Source: a virus. From it: a stretch of 22,702 nt of DNA. The stretch is from the IMG/VR virus record IMGVR_UViG_3300017735_000112, positions 1-22,702 of that record; one strand, 5' to 3'. Each line of letters opens with the position of its first letter. Within the stretch, counting starts at the first letter, position 1. Below, piece by piece: positions 1,441-20,137 of this stretch. The position numbers and the translations under genes are program-made. The notes beneath the pieces are model-generated. The model worked only from the letters and a program-made list of their open reading frames with translations, did not search any database and was not told where the DNA came from.

Positions 1441-2373
1441 ATGTTGATGTTATTGTTTATTATGTCTTGCATGTCCGATGGGATGCTAGCATACGAAAAA
1501 GAGGTTGAGGTATATGTAGAGGTTGAGTCTGAGTGCGAAGTGATAGAGGACACTGACTATGACTTTTCAGATCTTTGGGTTGATTCTTTTGTTCAGATTC
1601 GCTCACTGGATGGTGTTGATATATTTTGGGTTATTGATCCTTCAGGCTCTATGTTTGATGATCAGCCTGCAATCTTGGCAGGTATCCAACTCATGATGAG
1701 CAGTTTGCCTGCTGTTGGGTGGAGATTGATGATTATTCCTTCTGATTACCGTGAAGTGACAAACTTAACTTCTTTCCCTATTGTTCCGGGTGATACAATA
1801 GCAGATGTTGAAGCGATGTATAACGATCATATCAATGGACAGTATGAGGCAGGCTTTGATGCTGTGATAGAATATATAGACTTCAATCAATACGCCAATA
1901 CTTGGCTTAGGGATGATGCTGCTCTTCTAATTGTTTTCGTCTCTGATGAGAATGATCAGTCTAGAGAGCATGTAGCCAATGAGTTTGAGTTTATAAACTG
2001 GGCATTAATGCAAAGATCTCACACCTTTGTTGCTAGCATCATAAACTTACCAAATGATGTATCTGAATGTACTTCGAATGTGCCAATGCAGAATGTTGGA
2101 GAGAGATACGTTAACGCCACAAACTACTTCGGCGGTAATATTGTCGATATCTGTTCCGAAGATTGGAGTGCCGGTGTGGCACAAGCAGCAGATCAAGTCG
2201 TTCCTTATGAATGGATTGACTTGACACACGTTCCGCTAGATCCCAATTGGATATACGTTTATATAGATGGCATCCTAAATCGTGATTGGACTTACGACGC
2301 CACCTTAAACAGGGTTGAGTTCACTGTTATTCCGACAGGCAACTCTTTGGTTGAAGTAGTTTATAACTATTGA
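1441..2373 (+). CDS. VWA-domain putative lipoprotein (cargo-like, opposite strand)
   Basis: A 310-residue protein and the only plus-strand gene in the window. The N terminus MLMLLFIMSC resembles a short lipoprotein signal with a lipobox-like IMSC (Cys10), although it lacks the usual basic residues. The von Willebrand A domain begins near residue 58 with VDIFWVIDPSGSM; D66, S68 and S70 form the MIDAS metal site DxSxS, and VFVSDENDQS supplies a later acidic cluster. The C-terminal ~50 residues (WIYVYIDGILNRDWTYD) read like a small beta-sandwich add-on seen in bacterial surface VWA proteins. It probably binds a ligand at the cell or virion surface; the partner is unknown. The ribosome site is weak (GGGGG at -8 or so) and I see no convincing plus-strand promoter. 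Its stop overlaps the convergent endonuclease gene by 7 bases. Possibly host-derived cargo (inference). Confidence 0.75.
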   Translation: MLMLLFIMSCMSDGMLAYEKEVEVYVEVESECEVIEDTDYDFSDLWVDSFVQIRSLDGVDIFWVIDPSGSMFDDQPAILAGIQLMMSSLPAVGWRLMIIPSDYREVTNLTSFPIVPGDTIADVEAMYNDHINGQYEAGFDAVIEYIDFNQYANTWLRDDAALLIVFVSDENDQSREHVANEFEFINWALMQRSHTFVASIINLPNDVSECTSNVPMQNVGERYVNATNYFGGNIVDICSEDWSAGVAQAADQVVPYEWIDLTHVPLDPNWIYVYIDGILNRDWTYDATLNRVEFTVIPTGNSLVEVVYNY

Positions 2374-3041
2374 GATTTTTTGTCTTCTTCAAGCATTTTA
2401 AGTTGTTTGCTTGTCAGTTGCATATTATAAAGTTCAACTCCATCTTCGAGATATCGCTGAATTGTTTTTGTTTCTTCCAAGATTAGGGCATCTCTATCCT
2501 CGCTCTCGAACTCTTTTAAGATTGTCCATTCGAATGCTTCTTTTCCATACTTATTGAAGTCCTCTTGGAGTGGTTTGTTTATGTGATAGTCCCCTCGGAG
2601 GCGGATGAGATGTTCTTTCCATCTCAATTCTCCTTTTGTTGTCTCGCCGATGTACACCTTGTTGTTTTCCAAGTTCTTGATTTTATATGTGCAATTTGGT
2701 TGTTCTGCTACCTTTTCGGCATGACGCTTTGCTATCTTTTCTTTGTTTTGAACATAATGCTGTGCACGATATTCTGCTATCTTTTCTTTGTTTTGGGCAC
2801 GATACTGGGCTGAGTATTCGTTCAACTTTTCTCTGTTTTTTGCATAGTACTGTGCTATCTTTTCTTTGTTTTGAGCACGATACTGGGCATCATATTCTGC
2901 TTTCCTTTCTTTGTTTTGGGCACGATACTGTGACAGGCAAGCCTTGCATCCTGATCGATACCCGTCTTTACTAGCCTTACGCTTATGAAACTCCGTCAAC
3001 GGAGTTTCAATTCCACATTTTGTACATTTCTTTGTATTCAC
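2367..3041 (-). CDS. GIY-YIG endonuclease with N-terminal zinc finger and repeat linker
   Basis: A 224-residue protein in three parts. Residues 1-37 hold four cysteines as CTKC and CKAC with a basic loop between, a zinc-binding module typical of phage HNH/GIY-YIG endonucleases. Residues ~38-108 are an unusual linker of near-identical YRAQNKEKIAEY units. Residues ~117-200 form the nuclease: TYKIKNLENNKVYIGETTKG is the GIY-YIG core with a YIG triad, followed by RWKEHL (catalytic Arg candidate) and EFESEDRDALILEE. It is probably a homing-type or site-specific nuclease. The start codon is GTG (3041-3039), overlapping the methyltransferase stop as GTGA with AAGGGG upstream. It could be a free-standing mobile endonuclease or a nuclease paired with the methylase. 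Confidence 0.8.
   Translation of the reverse strand: MNTKKCTKCGIETPLTEFHKRKASKDGYRSGCKACLSQYRAQNKERKAEYDAQYRAQNKEKIAQYYAKNREKLNEYSAQYRAQNKEKIAEYRAQHYVQNKEKIAKRHAEKVAEQPNCTYKIKNLENNKVYIGETTKGELRWKEHLIRLRGDYHINKPLQEDFNKYGKEAFEWTILKEFESEDRDALILEETKTIQRYLEDGVELYNMQLTSKQLKMLEEDKKSQ
2731..2932 (-). repeat. in-frame tandem repeats in the endonuclease linker
   Basis: Five degenerate units, with a 45-base period and one shorter spacing of about 33-36 bases. On the plus strand each contains a form of CTATCTTTTCTTTGTTTTG. They encode YRAQNKEKIAEY-like segments joined by DAQ, SAQ or RAQ. The protein-level periodicity and codon-phased spacing show that they are coding repeats, not a CRISPR or intergenic array. 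Confidence 0.85.
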
Positions 3042-7949: not shown

Positions 7950-8456
7950 TTAGTCAATCTGATTCTGCATTAACATTTGAAAATACTTAAACGCATCCAT
8001 TCTGTTAAATTCTGTTCTGTCTGAAGACTGTGCTTGGCGCAATGCTTTGGAAAATTGATTACTTACAGCCTCTCCGGGGCCGGAGGCTAATTCAGAACCG
8101 TCATCCCTACGAGTTGTTATAGACTGTTCTTGAGGCTCTTTTCTGTTACTTGGATAAGCACTCCAACTTGATTTAACTGCTTCGCGATAGACTGGCATAA
8201 ACTTTCGCCTAATCACCATCACATCTGCTTGCGAGAAGTTGTCATATTTGGCTTGATCTTTAAGATATTCATCACTTGCCTTGTATATAAAACTCAAAAA
8301 AGAATTAGGGCTGTCTTCGAAAAAAGAACTGAACTGAGGGAAAGACAATTCGCCTAATTCGGTACTGATTTCATTTAGTAGTGCTTTGTTTTCGTACAGC
8401 ACTTTGGTTAACTCTTCTTTTACGAGTTGTTTGATATAAGATTTTGTCACTTTCAT
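7950..8456 (-). CDS. putative internal head protein with capsid-targeting leader (1)
   Basis: A 168-residue protein beginning MKVTKSYIKQLVKEEL and continuing TKVLYE, a leader shared with two other proteins here. L20-Y21-E22 fits the LxE site cut by T4-type prohead proteases, leaving a mature protein of about 146 residues. The rest (SFPQFSSFFEDSPNSFLSFI; later ITTRRDDGSELASGPGEA) is not recognised, looks mixed helical, and does not resemble its neighbour. The ATG at 8456 is chosen over an upstream ATG at 8513: AGGAGAAG is correctly placed before it, the leader aligns there with the other two, and the upstream extension overlaps the preceding gene. Function as a packaged or scaffold-associated protein is inferred from the leader alone. 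Confidence 0.7.
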   Translation of the reverse strand: MKVTKSYIKQLVKEELTKVLYENKALLNEISTELGELSFPQFSSFFEDSPNSFLSFIYKASDEYLKDQAKYDNFSQADVMVIRRKFMPVYREAVKSSWSAYPSNRKEPQEQSITTRRDDGSELASGPGEAVSNQFSKALRQAQSSDRTEFNRMDAFKYFQMLMQNQID

Positions 8457-8460
8457 TTTT
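8401..8460 (-). repeat. leader-encoding repeat, copy A (pairs with 8741-8800)
   Basis: This block covers the ribosome-site side and leader codons of the 168-residue protein. Over 52 aligned bases it differs from the 8741-8800 block at only five positions, while the downstream coding sequences are unrelated. A third leader at 16214-16264 matches at protein level but is much more diverged in DNA. Confidence 0.8.
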
Positions 8461-8493
8461 GCTTCTCCTTGAATGAATGATTTTTTTATTTTT

Positions 8494-8796
8494 TTATACT
8501 TGTACAAACTCAAGTGGCAAATCGTCGGTTATTCCGGCATCTTTTCTCAATGCTTCAATAGAAAACTGATCTCCAGAAGCCGCCTTTTGGATCATGCCCC
8601 AATATGGCTGTTGTCCTTTTTTGATAGTATACGGCTTGTCAACGTGCTTCGATGAAAGCGTTGCGCTTTCTTTACCTATTCGCATAAGGTGATTTTCGCC
8701 ACGCTGATTGGCAAAGTCCGAATCGATGCCTTCGTTCAATACCATAGTTAACTCTTCTTTGATGAGTTGCTTGATATAAGATTTTGTTACTTTCAT
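8494..8796 (-). CDS. putative internal head protein with capsid-targeting leader (2)
   Basis: A 100-residue protein whose first 22 residues, MKVTKSYIKQLIKEEL then TMVLNE, nearly duplicate those of the next gene. L20-N21-E22 is the predicted protease site, giving a mature product of 78 residues (GIDSDFANQRGENHLMRIGK onward) that is basic in its first half and of unknown function. The ribosome site is AAGGAGAA. It is probably co-transcribed with the next leader gene, 37 bases downstream. It may be packaged with DNA in the head (inference from the leader). Confidence 0.7.
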   Translation of the reverse strand: MKVTKSYIKQLIKEELTMVLNEGIDSDFANQRGENHLMRIGKESATLSSKHVDKPYTIKKGQQPYWGMIQKAASGDQFSIEALRKDAGITDDLPLEFVQV

Positions 8797-8800
8797 TTTA
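8741..8800 (-). repeat. leader-encoding repeat, copy B (pairs with 8401-8460)
   Basis: Partner of the 8401-8460 block. The match runs from the leader codons into the bases just upstream of the ATG, where both also carry a similar CATT/AAGGAGAA region, suggesting that leader and translation signal were duplicated as one unit. Confidence 0.8.
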
Positions 8801-8812
8801 AATTCTCCTTAA

Positions 8813-8858
8813 ATGAACGATATTCGAAGTAAATAGTTAATTAATTTCTTATTATCAA
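8813..8858 (-). promoter_or_regulatory. candidate promoter before the leader-protein pair
   Basis: The minus strand reads TTGATA, 17 bases, then TATTTA (8835-8830), 33 bases before the ATG at 8796. It differs from the ten-copy promoter family. The core ACTATTTA recurs before the third leader gene (16295-16288). It may be a class of promoter for structural genes; the evidence is only two sites. Confidence 0.35.
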
Positions 8859-9740
8859 TTATTCTAATAAGTTTTTCTTATATCTTGAAGGCTCTATCCA
8901 TTTCTCAACAACTGGTTTTGAGATCTCAATGTTTGATTCTGCCCATTTCTTATAACCATCAAAAGAAGTGGTGTCAAAATAGTAAGACAAGTCAAGTGTT
9001 GTAGCGTCCTCTCCAAGTTGGGAGAATACATCTTCGAGTTGAAAATGCCTTCCACTCCACCTTTCTTCTGCAGGGAGTAGTTCTCTAGGTATACCATCTT
9101 CGTTTTTCTTGCCTCCCGGCACATACCTACCTGTACCTTCTTTGCGAACCCATGCTCGACAGTTTATAAAGTCTTCCTCGTTGAATGTAAAGCCTAACAT
9201 CTTGCCTTGCTTGATCCCTTCTCCTTGTGAAGTGATTCTAAATCTCTTGTGAGTGGATATTGGCTTCCTGTACTCTCTAATCATCTCTGGAGGATAGATG
9301 CTCCACGGGAAAGCAACGTAATACATATTAGGCACTACCCACTTGGAAAGTTGATTAGACACCCTGTAAGCCATGTAAGCACCTTCTATAATACTCCATC
9401 CATATGAATCTCTCTTATTCCTGTTCTTAATGTCAATCGACGTAAAATATATCGGTATCATTGATCTTTTTGCAAATCTATCGGGATCCATTGGACGATG
9501 ATAGTTTACCGGATCATAAACATAATCTCCTACCACTTTCTTAAACATTGGTTGGATATCTGGATCAGCAACTATCCATATTGTCTCACAGCCTGCCCAT
9601 GCACATTCCATGATTGCTCTATGGATCATCAGGTAATTGTCATTGATCGGGAGCATACATGGGTGATAAGGTAGGTTGTATTGCAGAGGAACAGAAGACA
9701 AGGGGATTATTCCTGCCAAATGAAAGTTAAGATTACTCAA
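8859..9740 (-). CDS. conserved-looking phage protein, possibly nucleotidyltransferase-like
   Basis: A 293-residue protein. The first 75 residues (HLAGIIPLSSVPLQYNLPYH, then NYLMIHRAIMECAWAGCETI, then WIVADPD) follow the pattern of a GT-A/sugar-nucleotidyltransferase Rossmann half: a hydrophobic strand and loop, a long helix, and a second strand ending in an acidic residue. I cannot find a clean GxGTR signature, so the assignment is tentative. The C-terminal half is rich in Trp, Arg and acidic residues. It appears to start at TTG (9740-9738), overlapping the stop of the preceding gene as TTGA with GAGGAA upstream. Co-translation with the Rossmann-like protein and ThyX suggests nucleotide or DNA-base metabolism, but this is inference. 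Confidence 0.55.
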   Translation of the reverse strand: MSNLNFHLAGIIPLSSVPLQYNLPYHPCMLPINDNYLMIHRAIMECAWAGCETIWIVADPDIQPMFKKVVGDYVYDPVNYHRPMDPDRFAKRSMIPIYFTSIDIKNRNKRDSYGWSIIEGAYMAYRVSNQLSKWVVPNMYYVAFPWSIYPPEMIREYRKPISTHKRFRITSQGEGIKQGKMLGFTFNEEDFINCRAWVRKEGTGRYVPGGKKNEDGIPRELLPAEERWSGRHFQLEDVFSQLGEDATTLDLSYYFDTTSFDGYKKWAESNIEISKPVVEKWIEPSRYKKNLLE

Positions 9741-10546
9741 TGGAATTCCTCATCTAAAATATCATATTCAATAATATCTTCAATAGAATCAGCAATTCTA
9801 GCCATTATTGGAGATATCTCTCTTTCGCCCAAGATCAGTTCAAACTTCTTTTCCATATTCCAGAATATGGAACTTTGAGTTCTTAACCTTACTGCTGTCT
9901 GGCTATATTTCCAATGATCTAAGTTATCTTGACTGATGATAGACTTTGCACACGCTTTATGCTTTCTGCCCTTGTCTTTCATGAACACAGTCTCATATGC
10001 AATAGTATCTTCAAATTCACAATCTTGTGACGGAAACAAATTTGCCGATAGATCATAAATCTTGTTCATATGAATATAGTCATTAACCATGTAAGTTTTG
10101 TTTCCTAATGTATACTTGGGAAAATCAAAGAGTATCGTTTTCTTTGAATTGACATTAATTATCTTATTGTCTGCTCGGATTGTAAACATTCGAATGTTCT
10201 GCCCCATGGGGATTGATTCTGTGAATGTATTCTCGAAGACTCCCTGAAGTGGCATCAAGCCCATAACTCCTAATCGATATGCCATGATATTCCACAATTC
10301 TAGCCTTTGCATGCCTCTAGACTCTTTTTTCCCTGATAAAAGTTCAAACTCCGTAACATTGTTCTCAACCTGAATCCTAGACAGATCTAAGTCAGAAGAT
10401 AAGTGATAATGAGGTAGCGGCTTCAATGTCTCATCCGCAAAAATTGGGATTTGATACTTGAATGCTGTAACCATTGCTTGAACCGTACTACCGATTATTA
10501 TTTTGTCAAAGTAGAGATCTGTCTCACGATGTGGATTTGGCTTCAC
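9737..10546 (-). CDS. unknown protein with a Rossmann-like N terminus, linked to thyX
   Basis: A 269-residue protein. FDKIIIGSTVQAMVTAFKYQ followed by IPIFADE (residues 13-39) resembles the first beta-alpha-beta of an FAD/NAD-binding fold, but GSTVQA replaces the canonical GxGxxG. No other cofactor motif is clear and no enzyme family is recognised. The start is read as GTG at 10546 with AAGGTG upstream; it lies 23 bases inside the end of thyX, and I see no later in-frame start with a better site. A flavin-handling role beside the flavin-dependent ThyX is tempting but unproven. Confidence 0.55.
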   Translation of the reverse strand: MKPNPHRETDLYFDKIIIGSTVQAMVTAFKYQIPIFADETLKPLPHYHLSSDLDLSRIQVENNVTEFELLSGKKESRGMQRLELWNIMAYRLGVMGLMPLQGVFENTFTESIPMGQNIRMFTIRADNKIINVNSKKTILFDFPKYTLGNKTYMVNDYIHMNKIYDLSANLFPSQDCEFEDTIAYETVFMKDKGRKHKACAKSIISQDNLDHWKYSQTAVRLRTQSSIFWNMEKKFELILGEREISPIMARIADSIEDIIEYDILDEEFH

Positions 10547-11273
10547 TCTTCACCTTCCTATATGCATTAACTGTCACTGGGAACAAATCTGTTGCTAATT
10601 CTAGGCATGCTTCTGCTACCTTCTGTATCTCCCACTGCGCTCCTTCATGTGTCCTGAGTTCCACAAACTTCAAAAGATTATTAAGATTAACTGTGCCGTA
10701 ATATTCTGTGTATAAGTTTTGTGGCAAAACTCCTCTAGCCTGTTCCCTGCATACCCCAGCATCGATCAACTTGTTGAAGAAGTCTAATGACTGGACATGC
10801 CAAGATTTCATAGCGTCAGATGCTGAAATATAGGAATCGATAAATTGTGGTGTAATAGTAGGGTTGACAGTATTATCCTCATTAGATGCCTGCCTATTGC
10901 TCTCATGTTGGGTTCTGAACTCTAGAGGTTCATAAAACTGGAGATTTTTGTCCGTATAACGTCTACTAATCTCGTTATAACTCCAAGTGCGGTGCCTATG
11001 ATGCTGAGAGCGAACAAACAAAGGCACAACGAATTTAAAAGTAATAAGATTATGCTCAAGTGTTGATGTGTGGCGATGCTTAATAAGGTAATTGATAAGT
11101 CGCTTGTCTCTCCTATCGAGTTCGGACTTTTCGATACCAAAAGAAACCCTTGCAGAGTTAACAACAGTGATGTCGCTGCCCATGTAATCAACAAGGCTAA
11201 CTGAGCCAATATTGTCTCCGTAAGTAAAAATCGTTCTGTTATTAGCATTACTTTTGTCATCAGTCCCATTCAT
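10524..11273 (-). CDS. thyX: flavin-dependent thymidylate synthase ThyX
   Basis: A 249-residue ThyX, which makes dTMP from dUMP using methylene-tetrahydrofolate, FAD and NADPH. The diagnostic motif RHRTWSYNEISRRY occupies residues 93-106. Around it are the family's VVNSARVSFG (38-46), HTSTLEHN (68-75), and the C-terminal REQARGVLPQNLYTEYY with NLLKFVELR. Length matches typical ThyX proteins (about 220-260). The start overlaps the stop of the GroES-like gene (ATGA), with GGAGG upstream. Together with dUTPase and the B12-dependent reductase it gives the phage its own thymidine supply. Confidence 0.97.
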   Translation of the reverse strand: MNGTDDKSNANNRTIFTYGDNIGSVSLVDYMGSDITVVNSARVSFGIEKSELDRRDKRLINYLIKHRHTSTLEHNLITFKFVVPLFVRSQHHRHRTWSYNEISRRYTDKNLQFYEPLEFRTQHESNRQASNEDNTVNPTITPQFIDSYISASDAMKSWHVQSLDFFNKLIDAGVCREQARGVLPQNLYTEYYGTVNLNNLLKFVELRTHEGAQWEIQKVAEACLELATDLFPVTVNAYRKVKSEAKSTS

Positions 11274-11542
11274 TTTGCCTCCATAAGTAGTACTATATAG
11301 TTTTCCGATACTATATGATACATTTTACCTTCAATCAAGATATCTTCAATCATAGAGTTCTCCACATATGCTTCGCCACTATATTCTCTTTTACAATCAT
11401 CAGCACATGCAATGATGTTGACTTTAGCATATCTCTCTACTTTTGTAGTTTTATAATCTTCCGGAAGCAAAAATGTGCCTTCCTCTTCTTTAATCTCTTT
11501 AATTGGTATCTCTACCAATAAATGTCTATTAACTGGTTTCAT
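11270..11542 (-). CDS. GroES-like co-chaperonin (T4 gp31-type role)
   Basis: A 90-residue protein with the GroES layout. MKPVNRHLLVEIP opens the first strand, GTFLLPEDYK matches the family's G-hydrophobic-LP region, ERYAKVNIIACADDCK is the barrel core, and GKMYHIVSENYIVLLMEAK matches the C-terminal strand (VxExxYxVLxILE). The mobile-loop segment (KEIKEEE) is short and acidic, so binding to the host GroEL cannot be judged. Phage GroES-like proteins cap GroEL and can be needed to fold the major capsid protein. Identification is by pattern only. It has its own promoter and a ribosome site (GAGGAGG) that is complementary to the promoter spacer. Confidence 0.65.
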   Translation of the reverse strand: MKPVNRHLLVEIPIKEIKEEEGTFLLPEDYKTTKVERYAKVNIIACADDCKREYSGEAYVENSMIEDILIEGKMYHIVSENYIVLLMEAK

Positions 11543-11549
11543 AAAAAAA

Positions 11550-11587
11550 ATCCTCCTCTTGGTATATATTATACGTTTGAGGAGGAT
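11550..11587 (-). promoter_or_regulatory. anti-ribosome-site hairpin before the GroES-like gene
   Basis: The ribosome site at 11550-11558 (GAGGAGGAT on the minus strand) is a perfect 9-base complement of 11579-11587 in the promoter spacer, with the -10 box in the loop. Same arrangement as at dnaE. Confidence 0.65.
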
Positions 11588-11598
11588 ATTATATTCAA
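11568..11598 (-). promoter_or_regulatory. promoter of the GroES-like/thyX operon (copy 4)
   Basis: -35 TTGAAT (11598-11593), 19-base spacer ending CTCAAACG, and -10 TATAAT (11573-11568). Expected leader is about 19 bases. It lies immediately after the ribonucleotide reductase stop at 11605. Confidence 0.8.
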
Positions 11599-11604
11599 TC
11601 TAAT

Positions 11605-13461
11605 TTAGAAGATTTCGCAGGAACCTCCGGCACAGGCTAACTCACCTGAGAGATTTGTTTGATCTTCTTCTTCTGAGACATTATCAAGATTAATTTCTTT
11701 CAAACTCTTGAGCATTTGATGATATTGCTCTTCTGTGCAGTCTTCAAATGGAGCCTGTTTATAAGAATGATCATTGAATGGCAAAACTGATAGTCCATTA
11801 TAGGAATCACGATTATTCCACATCCATTCTCCTACTGTTTCCCATTCGTTATCTTTGATGGTTACAGTGGCAGAGACATTGTGTGAATTCTGTCCTTTTT
11901 GGTGTCCACCACGCACCCAAGAAGACGTTACAGCCTTAACCCTCTCTAACATGTCCATGGCACTCTCAGAACGCGTTATAGAGCCTTCAGGAGCCTTTTG
12001 TGGTGCAGAGATGACTGCAGTGTCATGTGGAGAGAAGTATTCATCCTCAACCAACTCTGGATGATGCTCTGCTAGGTGCTTATAGATTGCTTCGTTTTTT
12101 CCTACGCGGATTCTGCGTATATAATAATCATTATGCCACGCATGGATACCACTAGACGTCCCTAGAGTTAAAGAAGTTGTGCCTGCAGGCTTTACACAAG
12201 TGGTTCTTGCTGCCGGCTTGATACCAATCTGCATTGCTACACGACGATTCTCTTTCTTAACTTCCAATGAAGCCTTGCTCATGTCCAACTCCAAGACTCC
12301 ACCTGAGGCGATACCTGTCATAGAAACTCCAACTAAAGCGTCCTTTTCAGTTGTGCGTTGCCACACAGGACGTAGGTAATGAAAATCGGTATACCCTGCT
12401 TGTAGAGTTCCAATAAATGCTGCTGCTTTTGCTCTCTTCTCTAACTCTTCTTGCGTATCAACATCTGAGACATTGATTTCTGTCAAATTACAAAATTGAT
12501 ACGAACGTAGAGCGATTTCACAGCATGGGTTTGTGCCCCAGTCTTTATCGTTAGAGAAATAGAATCCGGGCTCTCCTGCACCTGATGCTCTGACGCGTTC
12601 CCAAATGTCCATAAAGAATTCTTTTGTGACTCGATGGCGAAGCAGAACAACAGAATTGTTTGCTCGTCCTCGCTGAGGGTTGAGTTCCCACCAGTTTCCT
12701 GATTTTGCTGCCAGCATCTCAATGTCATCTGCTGAGAACAAAGAAATCAGAGCAGCACGACGGATACCGCCTGCCAATACTGCATCGGCAATGTGACACA
12801 TAATATCATGCGCTTCGATAGTAGACAGTTTTTCACCATCCTCTTTCTGGCGTAAGATACCTTTAACCTTTACAATACACTCGCGAAGAGGCTGTGGGCC
12901 GGGTGCTTTACCACCGGAGGTTACCAACTTGGCACCTTTGGCGCGAATATCTGAAAAATCAAAACGAATCTTTGATGTTCCCTTGAAATAAGAATTCAAA
13001 AGCACCTTGATGGCGTCTGCCCATCCTTCGATAGAGTCTGCCACTAGATACCGTCGAGTTCTACTCTCATTTGGTTTACGAATTTCTGGTAATTTGTCAA
13101 TATGATGTCGTTGAACAGAAAAGCCAACTCCAGTTCCTCCCAAAAGCAAGAACATTGCTTCTGAGAATGAGCGAAGATCATCAACGGGCATAAAAGCACA
13201 GTTAAAGATGCGATTAGGAGAAACCTCAATTGGCTTACCTCCAAACTGCATACTTCTCATAGACGGAAGTACTTTCTTATCAAATACCATCTTATATGTT
13301 TCAATAATCTCATCTGATAGGCTAGGGTACTTTTTAATATGCATCTCCATATTGCGAGTGACAAGTTCTTTCCAATTCTCTCGTCTCTGCTTGTCTTCCA
13401 GATATCGAGCGTATTTCATATGGACAGTTATGTCCGATAATATTTGATTTGATACTTCCAT
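11605..13461 (-). CDS. nrdJ: adenosylcobalamin-dependent (class II) ribonucleotide reductase
   Basis: A 618-residue monomeric class II reductase of the Lactobacillus RTPR type, which reduces ribonucleotides to deoxyribonucleotides with vitamin B12 and no oxygen-dependent radical subunit. Catalytic residues align by spacing with RTPR: N311, thiyl C313 and E315 (N406, C408, E410 in RTPR), and the redox pair C88 and C324 (C119, C419). The C-terminal relay pair C610/C615 (CAGGSC) corresponds to C731/C736. Specificity and radical loops are recognisable (GGTGVGFSVQ, CVKPAGTTSLTLGTSSG). It is about 120 residues shorter than RTPR. The ATG follows the helicase stop by 2 bases, with AAGGAG inside the end of the helicase gene. 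The phage depends on a host that makes or imports B12. Confidence 0.95.
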   Translation of the reverse strand: MEVSNQILSDITVHMKYARYLEDKQRRENWKELVTRNMEMHIKKYPSLSDEIIETYKMVFDKKVLPSMRSMQFGGKPIEVSPNRIFNCAFMPVDDLRSFSEAMFLLLGGTGVGFSVQRHHIDKLPEIRKPNESRTRRYLVADSIEGWADAIKVLLNSYFKGTSKIRFDFSDIRAKGAKLVTSGGKAPGPQPLRECIVKVKGILRQKEDGEKLSTIEAHDIMCHIADAVLAGGIRRAALISLFSADDIEMLAAKSGNWWELNPQRGRANNSVVLLRHRVTKEFFMDIWERVRASGAGEPGFYFSNDKDWGTNPCCEIALRSYQFCNLTEINVSDVDTQEELEKRAKAAAFIGTLQAGYTDFHYLRPVWQRTTEKDALVGVSMTGIASGGVLELDMSKASLEVKKENRRVAMQIGIKPAARTTCVKPAGTTSLTLGTSSGIHAWHNDYYIRRIRVGKNEAIYKHLAEHHPELVEDEYFSPHDTAVISAPQKAPEGSITRSESAMDMLERVKAVTSSWVRGGHQKGQNSHNVSATVTIKDNEWETVGEWMWNNRDSYNGLSVLPFNDHSYKQAPFEDCTEEQYHQMLKSLKEINLDNVSEEEDQTNLSGELACAGGSCEIF

Positions 13462-13463
13462 AA

Positions 13464-14834
13464 TTAATTCTCCTTGTTTTTGTTGTTTTTGTATCTTTCG
13501 TATAAACTTGCTTTGTGCTCAGAGAGAGATTTTTCTTCAATCTCTTGCATTGTCTCTGTAGATTCGGAAAGTACTTCCATACTAACAGTACTCCAATCGG
13601 CAATAATTGGATATACAATTCCATCGACTCCATTTCTATTTTTTGCTACAAACATTCTTCCTGTGTTGTTAACTTTATCCTGTGCTGTCCTAGAGACAGA
13701 ACAAATAAAGTCAGCGACAAAACATTTGTTAAATGCTTCAGATATTGACTCCATTGTGACAACCTCAGCGTTAAGTCCTGAACGGTTTGTCTGAGATGCT
13801 GTCCATAGTGGGCATTGGAACATTTGAGACATCCCACGTAATTCTTCATAAATATTTTCCAAATCATGTCTTTTCTCTCTAGAGATACTGACAGGCTTGA
13901 GCAAATCAGCGTAATCAACTATAATCATGCCTACTTCAATTCCTCTCTTTTTCAGTTTTTCTAAATGATTTCTGATAGTGTTGGTTGAGGCAGATTTAGT
14001 AGGATATTCCTTAATGATGAGAGAGCCTTCAATTTGACTAATTTCATCATAAACTTGCTCCTTGAAACTATTCAAGTCTGATAATGGCACTTTCGTGATG
14101 CAAGAGTCATAACGTCTTCCAATTACTTTATCAGAAAGTTCAAAGGTGTAGTGAACAACAGTTTTTCCGTTTTTAACTGCTTCTGAACCTAGGGCAGTCA
14201 AAACCATTGACTTACCTGCTCCAGTTGGCGCCACCACAACTCCCAATTCTCCCATACCGAGTCCACCACCTGTGATGTCGTCAACATGTGCCCAACCAGT
14301 AGATTGTGGATTTCGAGCCTTAAGGGCATATCTTTCTTCAAAGTCTGTAAGGTATTCATAACCTGCTTCATTTCCCAATCCTAGGGACAGTGCATCATTG
14401 ATGATCTTGCTTATCTCATCAAATGAAGAAGACTGCATCAACTCTACAGTCTCCATTAGTGCTCCTTTTAGTTTCTGCTTTCTACAGAAATCTAGGCTTA
14501 CACCCATAATATACTCAGAGTCTTCTACTTCTGATCCGTGGATTCTACCAAAGTACTCTTTAACCTGTCTTTGCAATGCTTCATGCTCAGAGTCTAGTTC
14601 TGTTCTTAGTATCGTAATCATCGTTTTGTATGTTGGATGAACTTTGTATTTTTCTCGATACATAAGTATCTTAGAGACAAATGTCTGCAGATATGACAGT
14701 TCAAAAAAGTTTATATCTAAAACTTCGGTAATCTGATCACAATAGTTTCTATCCTCTAGCATTAATTGTACCATTGATTCTTGAAAATGTTTTCCAAATC
14801 TGGAAAAATCTTCTGGCATTTTTTTCATATTCAT
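13464..14834 (-). CDS. dnaB: DnaB/gp41-like replicative helicase
   Basis: A 456-residue hexameric-type helicase. Residues 1-150 form an N-terminal helical domain as in DnaB. The RecA-like motor has Walker A APTGAGKS (202-209), a following HYTFELSD segment with the catalytic Glu, Walker B MIIVDYADLL (near 307-316), SQTNRSG (motif H3-like), and FVAKNRNG, which should carry the arginine finger region. It unwinds the fork 5' to 3' on the lagging strand; no separate primase gene or fused primase domain is visible here. It has its own promoter and AGGAGGG; an ATG two codons later would have slightly better spacing. The reductase gene follows immediately, so the two are probably co-transcribed. Confidence 0.92.
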   Translation of the reverse strand: MNMKKMPEDFSRFGKHFQESMVQLMLEDRNYCDQITEVLDINFFELSYLQTFVSKILMYREKYKVHPTYKTMITILRTELDSEHEALQRQVKEYFGRIHGSEVEDSEYIMGVSLDFCRKQKLKGALMETVELMQSSSFDEISKIINDALSLGLGNEAGYEYLTDFEERYALKARNPQSTGWAHVDDITGGGLGMGELGVVVAPTGAGKSMVLTALGSEAVKNGKTVVHYTFELSDKVIGRRYDSCITKVPLSDLNSFKEQVYDEISQIEGSLIIKEYPTKSASTNTIRNHLEKLKKRGIEVGMIIVDYADLLKPVSISREKRHDLENIYEELRGMSQMFQCPLWTASQTNRSGLNAEVVTMESISEAFNKCFVADFICSVSRTAQDKVNNTGRMFVAKNRNGVDGIVYPIIADWSTVSMEVLSESTETMQEIEEKSLSEHKASLYERYKNNKNKEN

Positions 14835-14858
14835 TAACCCTCCTTTTTTGTTGTATAG

Positions 14859-14889
14859 TCTATACGTTTATGTTGTTTGTTTTATTCAG
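14859..14889 (-). promoter_or_regulatory. promoter of the helicase/RNR operon (copy 5)
   Basis: -35 CTGAAT (14889-14884), 19-base spacer ending ATAAACG, and -10 TATAGA (14864-14859). The TAA stop of the exonuclease gene (14884-14882) lies inside its GAATAA sequence. No anti-ribosome-site complement is seen. Confidence 0.75.
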
Positions 14890-15850
14890 AAATTATTCTC
14901 CTCATTGTCTGCTCAAGTACTTCCCACTTAAGTGACATGAATCCGTCTTCTGATAGCATTAATTTAAAGCCTGTTAGATTAAAGTGCTTATCTCTATCAA
15001 CCAAGCAGTTTTCAACCATTTGACGTCTCTGATAAGATACGGAAGGTTGATATAGTTGCATGATTTTATAATTTTCATGAATCACATCTTTATGTTCTAG
15101 AACTGCTTCTAGATACTTACTCTTCTTCTTATTTAGAAGTTCATTGGTAGCATTAAATAGATCTTGGGCACTATATTCTTCATCTTCTGACAAGAAAGGA
15201 AAGAATTTAACCACCCTTCCAAATCCAATTCCCGGCACTCCGGGAAGATTATCAGACGCGTCTCCAACCATTGCTCTAGCCAGTGCCATATTTTTTGGAT
15301 GTATCTTTAGATCCTCTAAGATCCTCTTTGTGTTCAAGACTTCCCATGGCTTTTTTGCAGGACGCATTAGAATGGTTGTATCATCACACAACTGCATAAA
15401 GTCCTTATCATTTGAAAGTATGATCTTCTGATCCTGTGCCACTCCTTTAGCCTGAACAATCGCTGAGATGATATCATCTGCTTCAATGTCTTCAAACATG
15501 AATTGGCAAATTGGAAGATGTTCTAGATACTCTAATAGCCTAGATTGCTGCCACACCTTGTTGTTCTTCTCTTCTTGCAAGGAGAAGTCGTATCCCATAT
15601 CTTTTGGTAGGTGAACAACCTTTCTTCCTGCTTTGTAATTAGCGTTAATTTGGCGTCTCTTTCTAGAGCCACCACTCCCGTCCCAAACGATTACTACATC
15701 GTCAGGCTTAGTTAGTCTTATAGACTTCTGTAAAGACTTCAGAAAGCCAATACAGCCACCTGAAGGGTTTCCTTGTATGCTAATACTTGGATCCCTTGCG
15801 TAGCACCTAAAAAACATATTAAGCGCATCAATAATTAAAATTTTTCTCAT
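14882..15850 (-). CDS. 5'-3' exonuclease / flap endonuclease (RNase H-like)
   Basis: A 322-residue FEN-family nuclease, expected to remove RNA primers and 5' flaps. Visible motifs in order: KILIIDALNMFFR (metal-binding Asp near residue 8), VIVWDGSGGSRKRRQINANY (second acidic residue and arch base), EDIEADDIISAI (acidic cluster), ILSNDKDFMQL (acidic pair), and MVGDASDNLPGVPGIG (the Asp pair and helix-three-turn-helix). The length matches T4 RNase H and PolI-type 5' nucleases. The frame is open to 15886, but the ATG at 15850 is used: CGGAGGG lies just upstream and the longer start would be inside the promoter. The family A polymerase of this phage lacks such a domain, so this protein supplies it in trans. 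Confidence 0.92.
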   Translation of the reverse strand: MRKILIIDALNMFFRCYARDPSISIQGNPSGGCIGFLKSLQKSIRLTKPDDVVIVWDGSGGSRKRRQINANYKAGRKVVHLPKDMGYDFSLQEEKNNKVWQQSRLLEYLEHLPICQFMFEDIEADDIISAIVQAKGVAQDQKIILSNDKDFMQLCDDTTILMRPAKKPWEVLNTKRILEDLKIHPKNMALARAMVGDASDNLPGVPGIGFGRVVKFFPFLSEDEEYSAQDLFNATNELLNKKKSKYLEAVLEHKDVIHENYKIMQLYQPSVSYQRRQMVENCLVDRDKHFNLTGFKLMLSEDGFMSLKWEVLEQTMRRIISE

Positions 15851-15865
15851 ATTCCCTCCGTATAT

Positions 15866-15896
15866 ATTATACGTTTGAGGGGGCAACCTTATTCAA
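15866..15896 (-). promoter_or_regulatory. promoter of the exonuclease (copy 6)
   Basis: -35 TTGAAT (15896-15891), 19-base spacer ending CTCAAACG, and -10 TATAAT (15871-15866). The -35 box contains the TGA stop of the 123-residue leader protein (15895-15893). A 5-base spacer segment (15877-15881) complements the ribosome site at 15854-15858. Leader is about 10 bases. Confidence 0.8.
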
Positions 15897-16264
15897 TGTT
15901 TTATTCCTACTGCTAAAAGAAACTCTTCGCCCAAAGTTCCATCTTCCATCATCTTTTTAACAACGGCGATGGCTAGTTCTCTATTGCCGTCTGCTAGTTT
16001 GCTTTGAATCATATAAAACAACTCTTTTTCACTAAGATCGTTCTGTGTAATTCCAGAACCTTCAGGGGCATTACGCCAATCATGACTCATTCCTCCAAAG
16101 TGAGCGTCTAAATAATGCCCCATGAAGGGGTGGTTAATTATTTTTTGAACTTCTCTTGGGGAAATTTGTGAAGCAGATTTCTTTTGCTTCATATGTCTTC
16201 TGAGTCTAGACTCGTTTAATTGTTCTTTTACTAATTGTCTAATGTATGATTTTGAAACTTTCAT
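15893..16264 (-). CDS. putative internal head protein with capsid-targeting leader (3)
   Basis: A 123-residue protein beginning MKVSKSYIRQLVKEQL then NES, so the LxE site L16-N17-E18 falls at the end of the shared leader. The mature part would start SRLRRHMKQKKSASQISPRE, a strongly basic segment that could contact DNA, followed by a helical C-terminal region (AIAVVKKMMEDGTLGEEFLL). No family recognised. The ribosome site is AGGAGAA. It lies directly downstream of the terminator behind uvsX, so it needs its own promoter, in line with different timing from the replication genes. The stop codon is built into the next promoter. Confidence 0.7.
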   Translation of the reverse strand: MKVSKSYIRQLVKEQLNESRLRRHMKQKKSASQISPREVQKIINHPFMGHYLDAHFGGMSHDWRNAPEGSGITQNDLSEKELFYMIQSKLADGNRELAIAVVKKMMEDGTLGEEFLLAVGIKH

Positions 16265-16298: not shown

Positions 16299-16332
16299 AA
16301 AAAAAACTCCCTACCAAACTAATGATAGGGAG
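16299..16332 (-). terminator. Rho-independent terminator after uvsX
   Basis: A perfect 7-base-pair stem, CTCCCTA (minus strand, 16332-16326) with TAGGGAG (16313-16307), a 12-base loop, and an eight-base U tract (16306-16299). This is the strongest terminator in the window; it sits 39 bases past the uvsX stop. Confidence 0.92.
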
Positions 16333-16370
16333 CCACAACATACAACAAAGGAGTCATTTCGTACTACGTT

Positions 16371-19274: not shown

Positions 19275-19305
19275 TATATACGTTTGAAGCCTTCATTTTA
19301 TTCAG
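19275..19305 (-). promoter_or_regulatory. promoter of the WYL_2-like gene (copy 9)
   Basis: -35 CTGAAT (19305-19300), 19-base spacer ending TTCAAACG, and -10 TATATA (19280-19275). The TAA stop of the tubulin-like gene (19300-19298) is formed by GAATAA of the promoter. Confidence 0.75.
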
Positions 19306-20137
19306 ATTGAATTTTCGATGATGATTTCAAAGCAAAAGAAAAGCCTTCTTCTAAATCTGTTGAATACACTCCAAAAGAAATTGACTTATCTCCTGATTCT
19401 GAGGAAGAGATATTTGTTAATTTTTCAAACAACTCTTCATCGTCTTCTATTCTTATACGATTGACTCCAAAGAAATATTCAATTTGATTAACATCTTTCA
19501 TCTCAAAGCAATCTATAGACTGAGATTCATTAATATCTACAACACTAATGGTTCCTACTCTAGAACTGATGTATCTATCTCTAAATGTATCAAACACTGG
19601 ATCTGAATTAATGTATATGTTATACCAATGTATTGACGTTGCAAGTAGTTTGTTGATCTTAGGGTAGAAACTCAAAATAGATGTCTTCCCAACTATGTCA
19701 GACATAGAGTTATTGTTAAATATAAACATTCTTTCAAACACACCTGATCTAGTATACTCCTGAAGAATGTGAAAATGTGCTCTATTTCTCATTATTGATT
19801 TCTTGTCTAGTGTAGATGAGTCTGGCTTGACATATACAATATTAATTTTCTTTTCTGTAAGTTCTTTCAAGATCCAAAGAGAACAAGCAGATACTTTTCC
19901 CGATCCGCAGACAATAAAATATACTTCCTCATCATCATCTAGCGAGCCTATGAGTTTTGTTAAATCTATTGGATTTGCATCATAGAGTTCTGCTGATTGC
20001 TGTGAAGGTATATAAAAACAATTCTTCTTTCTCTTATACTTATCCTCTGAGTCTAGTAAAAAGACTTTATACTGAGGATATTCTTTAAATAGTTCTGCTA
20101 TCTTACATCCTGCTTTTCCTAATCCTATTATATTCAT
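19298..20137 (-). CDS. divergent tubulin/FtsZ-fold protein
   Basis: A 279-residue protein whose first 150 residues follow the order of FtsZ/tubulin nucleotide loops. GLGKAGCKI (5-13) is like the first glycine loop, with LLDSE (27-31) at the second. VCGSGKVSAC (76-85) takes the place of the GGGTGTG signature. VKPDS (103-107) follows the next strand, then RNRAHFHILQEYTRSG with FIFNNNSM (138-145), where FtsZ has the loop-helix and N-D/N-x-L segment. The signature loop is degenerate (one G-S-G rather than GGGTG(S/T)G), so GTP binding or hydrolysis may be altered. The C-terminal half is not recognised and is shorter than in FtsZ. It may be a phage cytoskeletal or nucleotide-binding regulator; homology is inferred from motif order, not from a search. 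The ribosome site is AAGGAG. Confidence 0.5.
   Translation of the reverse strand: MNIIGLGKAGCKIAELFKEYPQYKVFLLDSEDKYKRKKNCFYIPSQQSAELYDANPIDLTKLIGSLDDDEEVYFIVCGSGKVSACSLWILKELTEKKINIVYVKPDSSTLDKKSIMRNRAHFHILQEYTRSGVFERMFIFNNNSMSDIVGKTSILSFYPKINKLLATSIHWYNIYINSDPVFDTFRDRYISSRVGTISVVDINESQSIDCFEMKDVNQIEYFFGVNRIRIEDDEELFEKLTNISSSESGDKSISFGVYSTDLEEGFSFALKSSSKIQSE

Follow-up and report, generated by a model that had tools for sequence, protein, structure and literature searches.

An N-terminal leader ending in L-x-E on unrelated proteins of uncultured T4-like phages, probably acting like a capsid-targeting sequence

The virus record IMGVR_UViG_3300017735_000112, analyzed here over its full 22,702 bases and referred to as the window, carries a replication region of a T4-like phage, including genes for PolIII alpha, ThyX, ribonucleotide reductase, DnaB, an exonuclease, UvsX, a single-strand-binding protein, and a partial family-A polymerase. 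Nearly all of the identified genes lie on the minus strand, as do three small genes whose products begin with almost the same peptide. P0001 (168 residues; 7950-8456) is flanked by the PolIII alpha gene and by P0002 (100 residues; 8494-8796), with which it stands in tandem, and P0003 (123 residues; 15893-16264) is flanked by the UvsX and exonuclease genes. The three proteins start MKVTKSYIKQLVKEELTKVLYE, MKVTKSYIKQLIKEELTMVLNE, and MKVSKSYIRQLVKEQLNE, respectively, for a consensus of MKV(T/S)KSYI(K/R)QL(V/I)KE, and the shared parts end in LYE22, LNE22, and LNE18. The leaders, each also recovered by a hidden Markov model (HMM), occupy residues 1-22 of P0001 (8391-8456, minus strand), 1-22 of P0002 (8731-8796, minus strand), and 1-18 of P0003 (16211-16264, minus strand). 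An earlier note, made from the letters of this DNA, had pointed to these three reading frames without giving their strand and had placed the L-x-E triplets at residues 20-22, 20-22, and 16-18; the frames, the common start, and the triplets are all as it described.

Across the three pairs, 15, 13, and 12 of the first 16 residues are identical. The earlier note's observation that similarity stops after the leader also holds, as BLASTP aligns only the starts of P0001 and P0002 (residues 1-36, E 5e-10) and of P0001 and P0003 (residues 1-17, E 2e-6); in both of these pairs the bodies are unrelated. An HMM built from 240 leaders, with those of the window excluded, recovered all three proteins among the window's open reading frames (ORFs; E 7e-12, 3.5e-11, and 4e-6). 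A single homologue was found for the body of P0001 (locus L046); it also bears the leader and is 39-41% identical, with 17 of 22 leader residues identical versus 39% for the whole protein. One scan with the P0002 body gave no homologue, the sole locus found matching the leader only, and P0003 has three homologous loci that are 85-97% identical, each leader-bearing (two of them translated). No Pfam or PHROG family scored above its cut-off on any of the three. Structure predictions for P0003 (from three sequences, mean pLDDT 57.9) and P0001 (two sequences, 45.4) were too poor for a fold search, and both low-confidence models place a predicted helix over the leader.

The leader recurs well beyond the window. 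Among relatives, for which 43 loci related to the PolIII gene were found, it is present in close ones, commonly on two genes in tandem, and takes the form MKITKSQLKQIIKEEL in more distant ones. A degenerate leader pattern matched 14 sites in five of nine related records, and because the same pattern written backwards matched nothing in all nine, the shared leader is not a product of chance. A degenerate pattern spanning codons 1-15, referred to below as the strict pattern, matched at least 120 stretches in viral contigs. The search for further leader proteins that the earlier note proposed yielded, after removal of near-duplicates, 323 proteins with this leader, here called type 1, in the phage contigs retrieved; they fall into 243 body families (225 at first count), where families are single-linkage groups at a blastp E of 1e-3 and proteins are mechanical ORFs from ATG rather than annotated genes. 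The strict pattern matched 28 of 30 records, most of them chosen by that pattern, and its backwards control matched none of the 30. The strict type-1 pattern had no match in 84,980 prokaryote species genomes, and no host was identified. Searches of cultured phages with tblastn gave weak matches or none, and the HMM did better: gp080 of Flavobacterium phage vB_FspM_immuto_2-6A (host Flavobacterium sp. LMO8) matches the type-1 model at E 1.2e-7, and the N-termini of gp094, gp095, and gp114 match it weakly (E 0.008-0.017), in the 150 of 160 kb searched. The literature searched, which took in few subscription papers and preprints, held no description of these leaders. The conserved element is the peptide: the DNA that precedes 241 leader genes shows no clear signal other than a ribosome-binding site.

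How the leader ends is of particular interest, as the earlier note likened the L-x-E triplet to the site at which the T4 prohead protease gp21 cuts. In 225 representatives, the information content is ≈2-4 bits at most positions from 2 to 16 (1.3 bits at residue 6). After position 16, V19, L20, and E22 stand out, the next two residues, 23 and 24, carry 0.24 and 0.11 bits, and conservation of the type-1 leader ends at residue 22. The patterns with which the set was collected stop at residue 15. Among the 222 leader proteins of at least 45 residues, 164 have (L/I/M/V)-x-E with the glutamate at residues 18-23, compared with a mean of 64.5 and a maximum of 85 in 1000 shuffles; the strict L-x-E occurs there in 99 (shuffled mean 36.9, maximum 54). 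With L or I allowed, as in the gp21 rule of L/I-x-E (given in PMC9026906 along with T4 propeptide lengths of 10-19 residues), the count is 121, so the strict motif is present in about half. Downstream windows of equal width contain (L/I/M/V)-x-E in 6-14% of cases. The residue following the glutamate is commonly G, A, S, or N and sometimes E. As a yardstick, (L/I)-x-E in T4 (NC_000866) ends at residue 10 of IPII and IPIII, 19 of IPI, 6 and 10 of gp24, and 18, 24, 38, and 65 of gp23, the last of which equals the 65-residue gp23 propeptide reported in PMC5694885. The gp23-type capsid proteins recovered from 17 head blocks of relatives have L(K/R)E at residues 59-61 in 14 of 14 cases.

A gp21-like prohead protease, which the proposed cleavage calls for, is present in most relatives that hold the head region, among them contigs G009 and G001. 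The S77 prohead protease family PF03420 was found in 7 of the 11 records first tested, and the gp23 family PF07068 in those same 7. Among the matches listed, 19 of 27 leader contigs of at least 30 kb contain PF03420 (10/13 plus 9/14; one in two pieces), against none of 8 control contigs of that length from 21 drawn with a random pattern, a small control that includes any kind of phage. Six of the eight leader contigs without the protease (G018, G019, G038, G039, G040, and G045) end within 13 kb downstream of the leader, G018 inside the portal gene and G045 just beyond it, so their head block probably lies off the contig.

The leader genes also show linkage to the head block. Of 20 protease-bearing contigs, 17 have a strict leader on the protease strand at a distance of 5-20 kb upstream of the protease; when leaders were placed uniformly, 20,000 trials gave 4.9 such contigs on average and never more than 12. 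The 20 comprise the 19 contigs above and G002, at most 19 are independent since G035 and G037 resemble one phage, and the 5-20 kb range was chosen after the positions had been seen. Genes scoring with the type-1 or type-2 leader HMM (E <1e-3; type 2 is described below) stand no more than two genes from the protease in 6 of 14 displayed head blocks (G009, G014, G017, G021, G022, and G023); this count excludes the head gene after the protease and includes some scored genes that were in the training sets, and three further blocks are without the search motif. In G009, whose PolIII is 91% identical to that of the window over 680 residues, two genes with nearly the same leader immediately precede the protease. 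In G003, G005, and G004, a head gene that follows the protease directly or with one gene in between also has a leader-like N-terminus (E 2e-8 to 7e-7), a resemblance that we weight weakly because the model that gave these values had been trained on one such gene.

Two further features of the head blocks were noted. Beside the protease of G022 lies a gene for a 327-residue protein that begins with a type-1 leader and carries a leader-like helix, ISRERLQEIIKEELQNRKR, at the C-terminal end. The C-terminal tail of the scaffold protein, RWxxLAGI, or a near match to it, also ends four non-scaffold proteins, in G013 (762 residues), G014 (140 residues), G021 (523 residues), and G005 (180110-181516); by eye, the G005 protein also starts like a type-1 leader. 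On these proteins the tail might be another core-binding tag, placed at the C-terminus. It does not serve as a second tag in general, as the full pattern occurs on 0 of 317 type-1 and 0 of 196 type-2 proteins.

The type-1 leader is not the only one of its kind. A type-2 leader, MKLLxENWRxYLxE, begins 223 proteins, which form 119 families. Most of these came from a scan in which the glutamate was obligatory; of those collected without this requirement 35 of 45 end in (F/Y)(L/I/V)xE. A type-3 leader, M(A)xRKNxKxIDPRYF, begins 20 proteins. Related bodies are found behind different leader types, and the leaders are in this sense modular. A search confined to bodies (from residue 26 in type 1 and residue 17 in type 2) paired L181 (type 1) with L363 (type 2; 62.6% identical over 115 residues), L195 with L309 (46.9% over 192), and L132 with L393 (33.5% over 164). 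In a full-length search the first two alignments extend into the leaders, leaving the exact joins unfixed. One type-1/type-3 pair (52.9% over 121 residues) has an alignment that begins at the L-x-E itself, and in a second, compared by eye, the shared part runs from VLE-ATDPHDQ against LSE-ATDPHDQ, the alignment starting earlier. Four proteins of immuto_2-6A (NC_055915; at 1803, 103806, 117631, and 118632) share yet another leader, MENFDLKKFLVENKLT-NS-LL-E (FDLKKFLVEN.LT), which ends near an LxE-type triplet and which, judged by its sequence, represents a fourth leader class, in a cultured phage; the proteins are gp003, gp076, gp077, and gp092. The same genome has an annotated prohead protease at 124,660-125,241.

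The bodies behind these leaders are diverse. In a domain scan of 67 of the 243 type-1 representatives (at least 140 residues, P0001 excluded) and the 75 longest of the 119 type-2 representatives, most bodies had no Pfam match. Type-1 domains comprised GNAT acetyltransferase (two), pentapeptide repeats (one), leucine-rich repeats (one), and two weak single matches; type-2 domains included Zeta toxin and other P-loop kinases, M23 peptidase, NUDIX, GNAT, 5'-nucleotidase, RNA-repair-like, and ParB, with PHROG matches in agreement, as well as a HAD enzyme. The gp077 protein of immuto, which bears the fourth-class leader, is annotated as a cob(I)alamin adenosyltransferase. The earlier note had held that an intact leader on cytoplasmic enzymes would speak against packaging. 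The NUDIX, 5'-nucleotidase, and HAD bodies of type 2 and gp077 with its other leader touch on this point without clearly amounting to such a case, and these enzyme-like proteins may be packaged as cargo, may act in the cytoplasm, or may be wrongly annotated. T4 IPI blocks a restriction enzyme (PMC3012670), and by analogy our guess is that the window proteins may be small host-takeover or anti-defence proteins.

Taken together, the linkage to the head block, the enrichment of the L-x-E end, and the exchange of leaders between related bodies support the capsid-targeting interpretation of the earlier note, and we think it likely that the leader works like the T4 capsid-targeting sequence (CTS), as a protease-removed propeptide on packaged cargo. 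A tag of ≈18-22 residues, probably helical, would bind the prohead core or scaffold of a T4-like phage, and unrelated proteins would thereby be built into the prohead. A gp21-type protease would then cut after the terminal (L/I/M/V)-x-E, releasing the mature protein within the head, from which it would pass out together with the DNA when a cell is infected. On this view P0001, P0002, and P0003 would be such cargo. Core binding, cleavage, packaging, injection, and cargo function are steps that we infer. On a broader scale, the odds lean modestly toward an open, modular head-delivery system in aquatic uncultured T4-like phages, with at least four leader classes, partly interchangeable and mostly LxE-ended, on hundreds of cargo families shuffled in islands upstream of the terminase-portal-protease block. 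If so, the leader would serve as a label with which injected effectors could be listed from sequence alone. Hundreds of head-packaged and probably injected proteins, most without known function, would have been identified, where T4 is known for a handful, and phage-delivered proteins would become searchable by sequence, offering candidates for anti-defence and takeover functions and new packaging tags. Flavobacterium phage immuto provides a cultured leader-bearing relative.

Comparison with known systems shows both parallels and differences. Like the T4 CTS of IPI, IPII, IPIII, and Alt, described in PMC9026906 as 10-19 residues long, the leader is a short N-terminal peptide on diverse proteins, has the LxE-type end of the internal proteins, and occurs in phages with a gp21-family protease and a gp23-family capsid, here in the relatives. 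Unlike the T4 CTS, the type-1 leader is longer and rich in lysine and glutamate, and it is not detectably homologous by sequence; proteins with a leader are also far more numerous here than in T4. The likeness of type 2 to the T4 CTS, which concerns length and aromatic residues, is by eye only. In phage P1 the first 30 residues of DarB suffice to send a reporter into the head (PMC9024508), but here one leader is common to hundreds of families. The propeptides of the giant phages SPN3US and phiKZ are likewise N-terminal and cut after glutamate by a gp21-related protease (PMC5694885 and PMC9026906); several are more than 100 residues long, against ≈20 here, and phiKZ has the motif S/A-x-E in place of (L/I/M/V)-x-E.

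Several observations weigh against a T4-like packaging role. No prohead protease or gp23 was found in the 22.7-kb window fragment, where the leader genes sit in the replication region, and neither an S77 nor an S78 protease was found in leader contigs G020 (147 kb) and G041 (51 kb). Leaders lie 43-115 kb from the protease in G002, G015, and G016, and 57 of the 222 type-1 proteins have no (L/I/M/V)-x-E at residues 18-24. T4 IPI, IPII, and IPIII are unmatched by the type-1 and type-2 leader HMMs, in a comparison made without Alt. With the G003 gene left out of training, the head-gene matches fall to E 5e-3 (G003), 4e-4 (G005), and 1e-3 (G004). Homologues without a leader exist for some bodies, which shows that these proteins do not need packaging in every case; at most 44 of 323 and 73 of 223 bodies have such matches, many of which are leader variants missed by the pattern, and by eye some start near the predicted cut (e.g., M-GGNIF against LQE-GGNIF). 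The case for packaging and cleavage is sequence-based throughout, and the literature searched yielded no virion proteomics.

Alternatively, the proteins could be assembly factors, comparable to T4 gp67 and gp68, for which the leader is a peptide that binds the core or scaffold; they would stay in the prohead or leave it, aid head assembly, and not be injected. The head gene that comes soon after the protease, with its weakly related N-terminus (E 4e-4 to 5e-3 in G005, G004, and G003), the RWxxLAGI tail on four non-scaffold proteins from head blocks or whole records, and the lack of a known domain in most of the scanned bodies would all suit such a role. Hundreds of unrelated bodies, some of them enzymes (Zeta toxin/kinase, M23 peptidase, GNAT, and NUDIX), are unlike core parts, however, and the P0002 body had no homologue in one scan; we regard this alternative as unlikely. 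The replication-gene neighborhood of the window's leader genes instead recalls a cytoplasmic interaction helix, for example one that docks with a replication complex, or a RelB-like antitoxin N-terminus, for which the L-x-E would be incidental. Pfam PF25734 (RelB-like antitoxin) indeed scores 22.1 bits on P0001, but in most of the contigs tested the leader genes show linkage to the head block, and the L-x-E end is enriched, making a cytoplasmic role very improbable. The RelB version was dropped, as the PF25734 score falls short of the 27-bit cut-off and the family matched 1 of 28 leader proteins; it rose above the cut-off in 0 of 12 records, with sub-cut-off matches at E 0.01 in 6 of the 12, some at leader-like N-termini.

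The common start might also have arisen at the level of DNA, through a hot spot of recombination or through gene conversion, or as a conserved module for starting translation. The leader DNA of P0001 and P0002 is identical at 44 of 48 positions over codons 1-16, so a recent exchange is possible. Against a DNA-level origin, upstream conservation is limited to the ribosome-binding-site region, third codon positions carry 0.84 bits versus 1.65 at second positions, and leader types of different sequence have the LxE-type end in common; we give this explanation almost no credence.

Expression signals in the window may set the leader genes apart from their neighbors. The octamer AACGTATA occurs 11 times against 0.49 expected, with ten copies on the gene strand (1350, 2252, 7907, 11570, 14861, 15868, 17542, 18780, 19277, and 21476, minus) and one on the other (217, plus). 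It precedes several replication genes and is absent from the 75 bases before each of the three leader genes; in G007, ACGTATA is distributed 35 to 0 by strand. In this group of phages the octamer probably acts as an early or middle promoter element, and its distribution would agree with leader genes that use another class of promoter, although P0001 and P0002 could also be read from upstream. A hairpin resembling an intrinsic terminator (16305-16334, minus strand; 12-pair stem with a T tail) separates P0003 from UvsX and may mean that P0003 is transcribed from a promoter of its own; the hairpin is a consensus match only, and terminator-like sites in the region number 8 compared with 6.1 in shuffles. 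The T4 late box TATAAATA was considered as a marker of leader genes and rejected: it was not found before P0001 or P0002, occurs once near P0003 on the opposite strand (16286), and does not mark leader genes generally.

Three other window proteins drew attention. The 310-residue protein at 1441-2373 (plus strand, against the prevailing gene direction) contains a DPSGSM motif that by eye recalls a von Willebrand A domain; it has no Pfam match, and a similar gene lies at 148711-149682 in G001. The 279-residue protein at 19298-20137 (minus strand) has a start, GLGKAGCKIA, and a CGSGKVSA stretch that by eye recall FtsZ/tubulin-like GTPases, and its Pfam result is a weak TrkA_N match only (E 0.083). 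At 2367-3041 (minus strand) lies a GIY-YIG endonuclease gene (Pfam E 7e-9), whose product contains an internal repeat, AQYRAQNKEK..., seen by eye.

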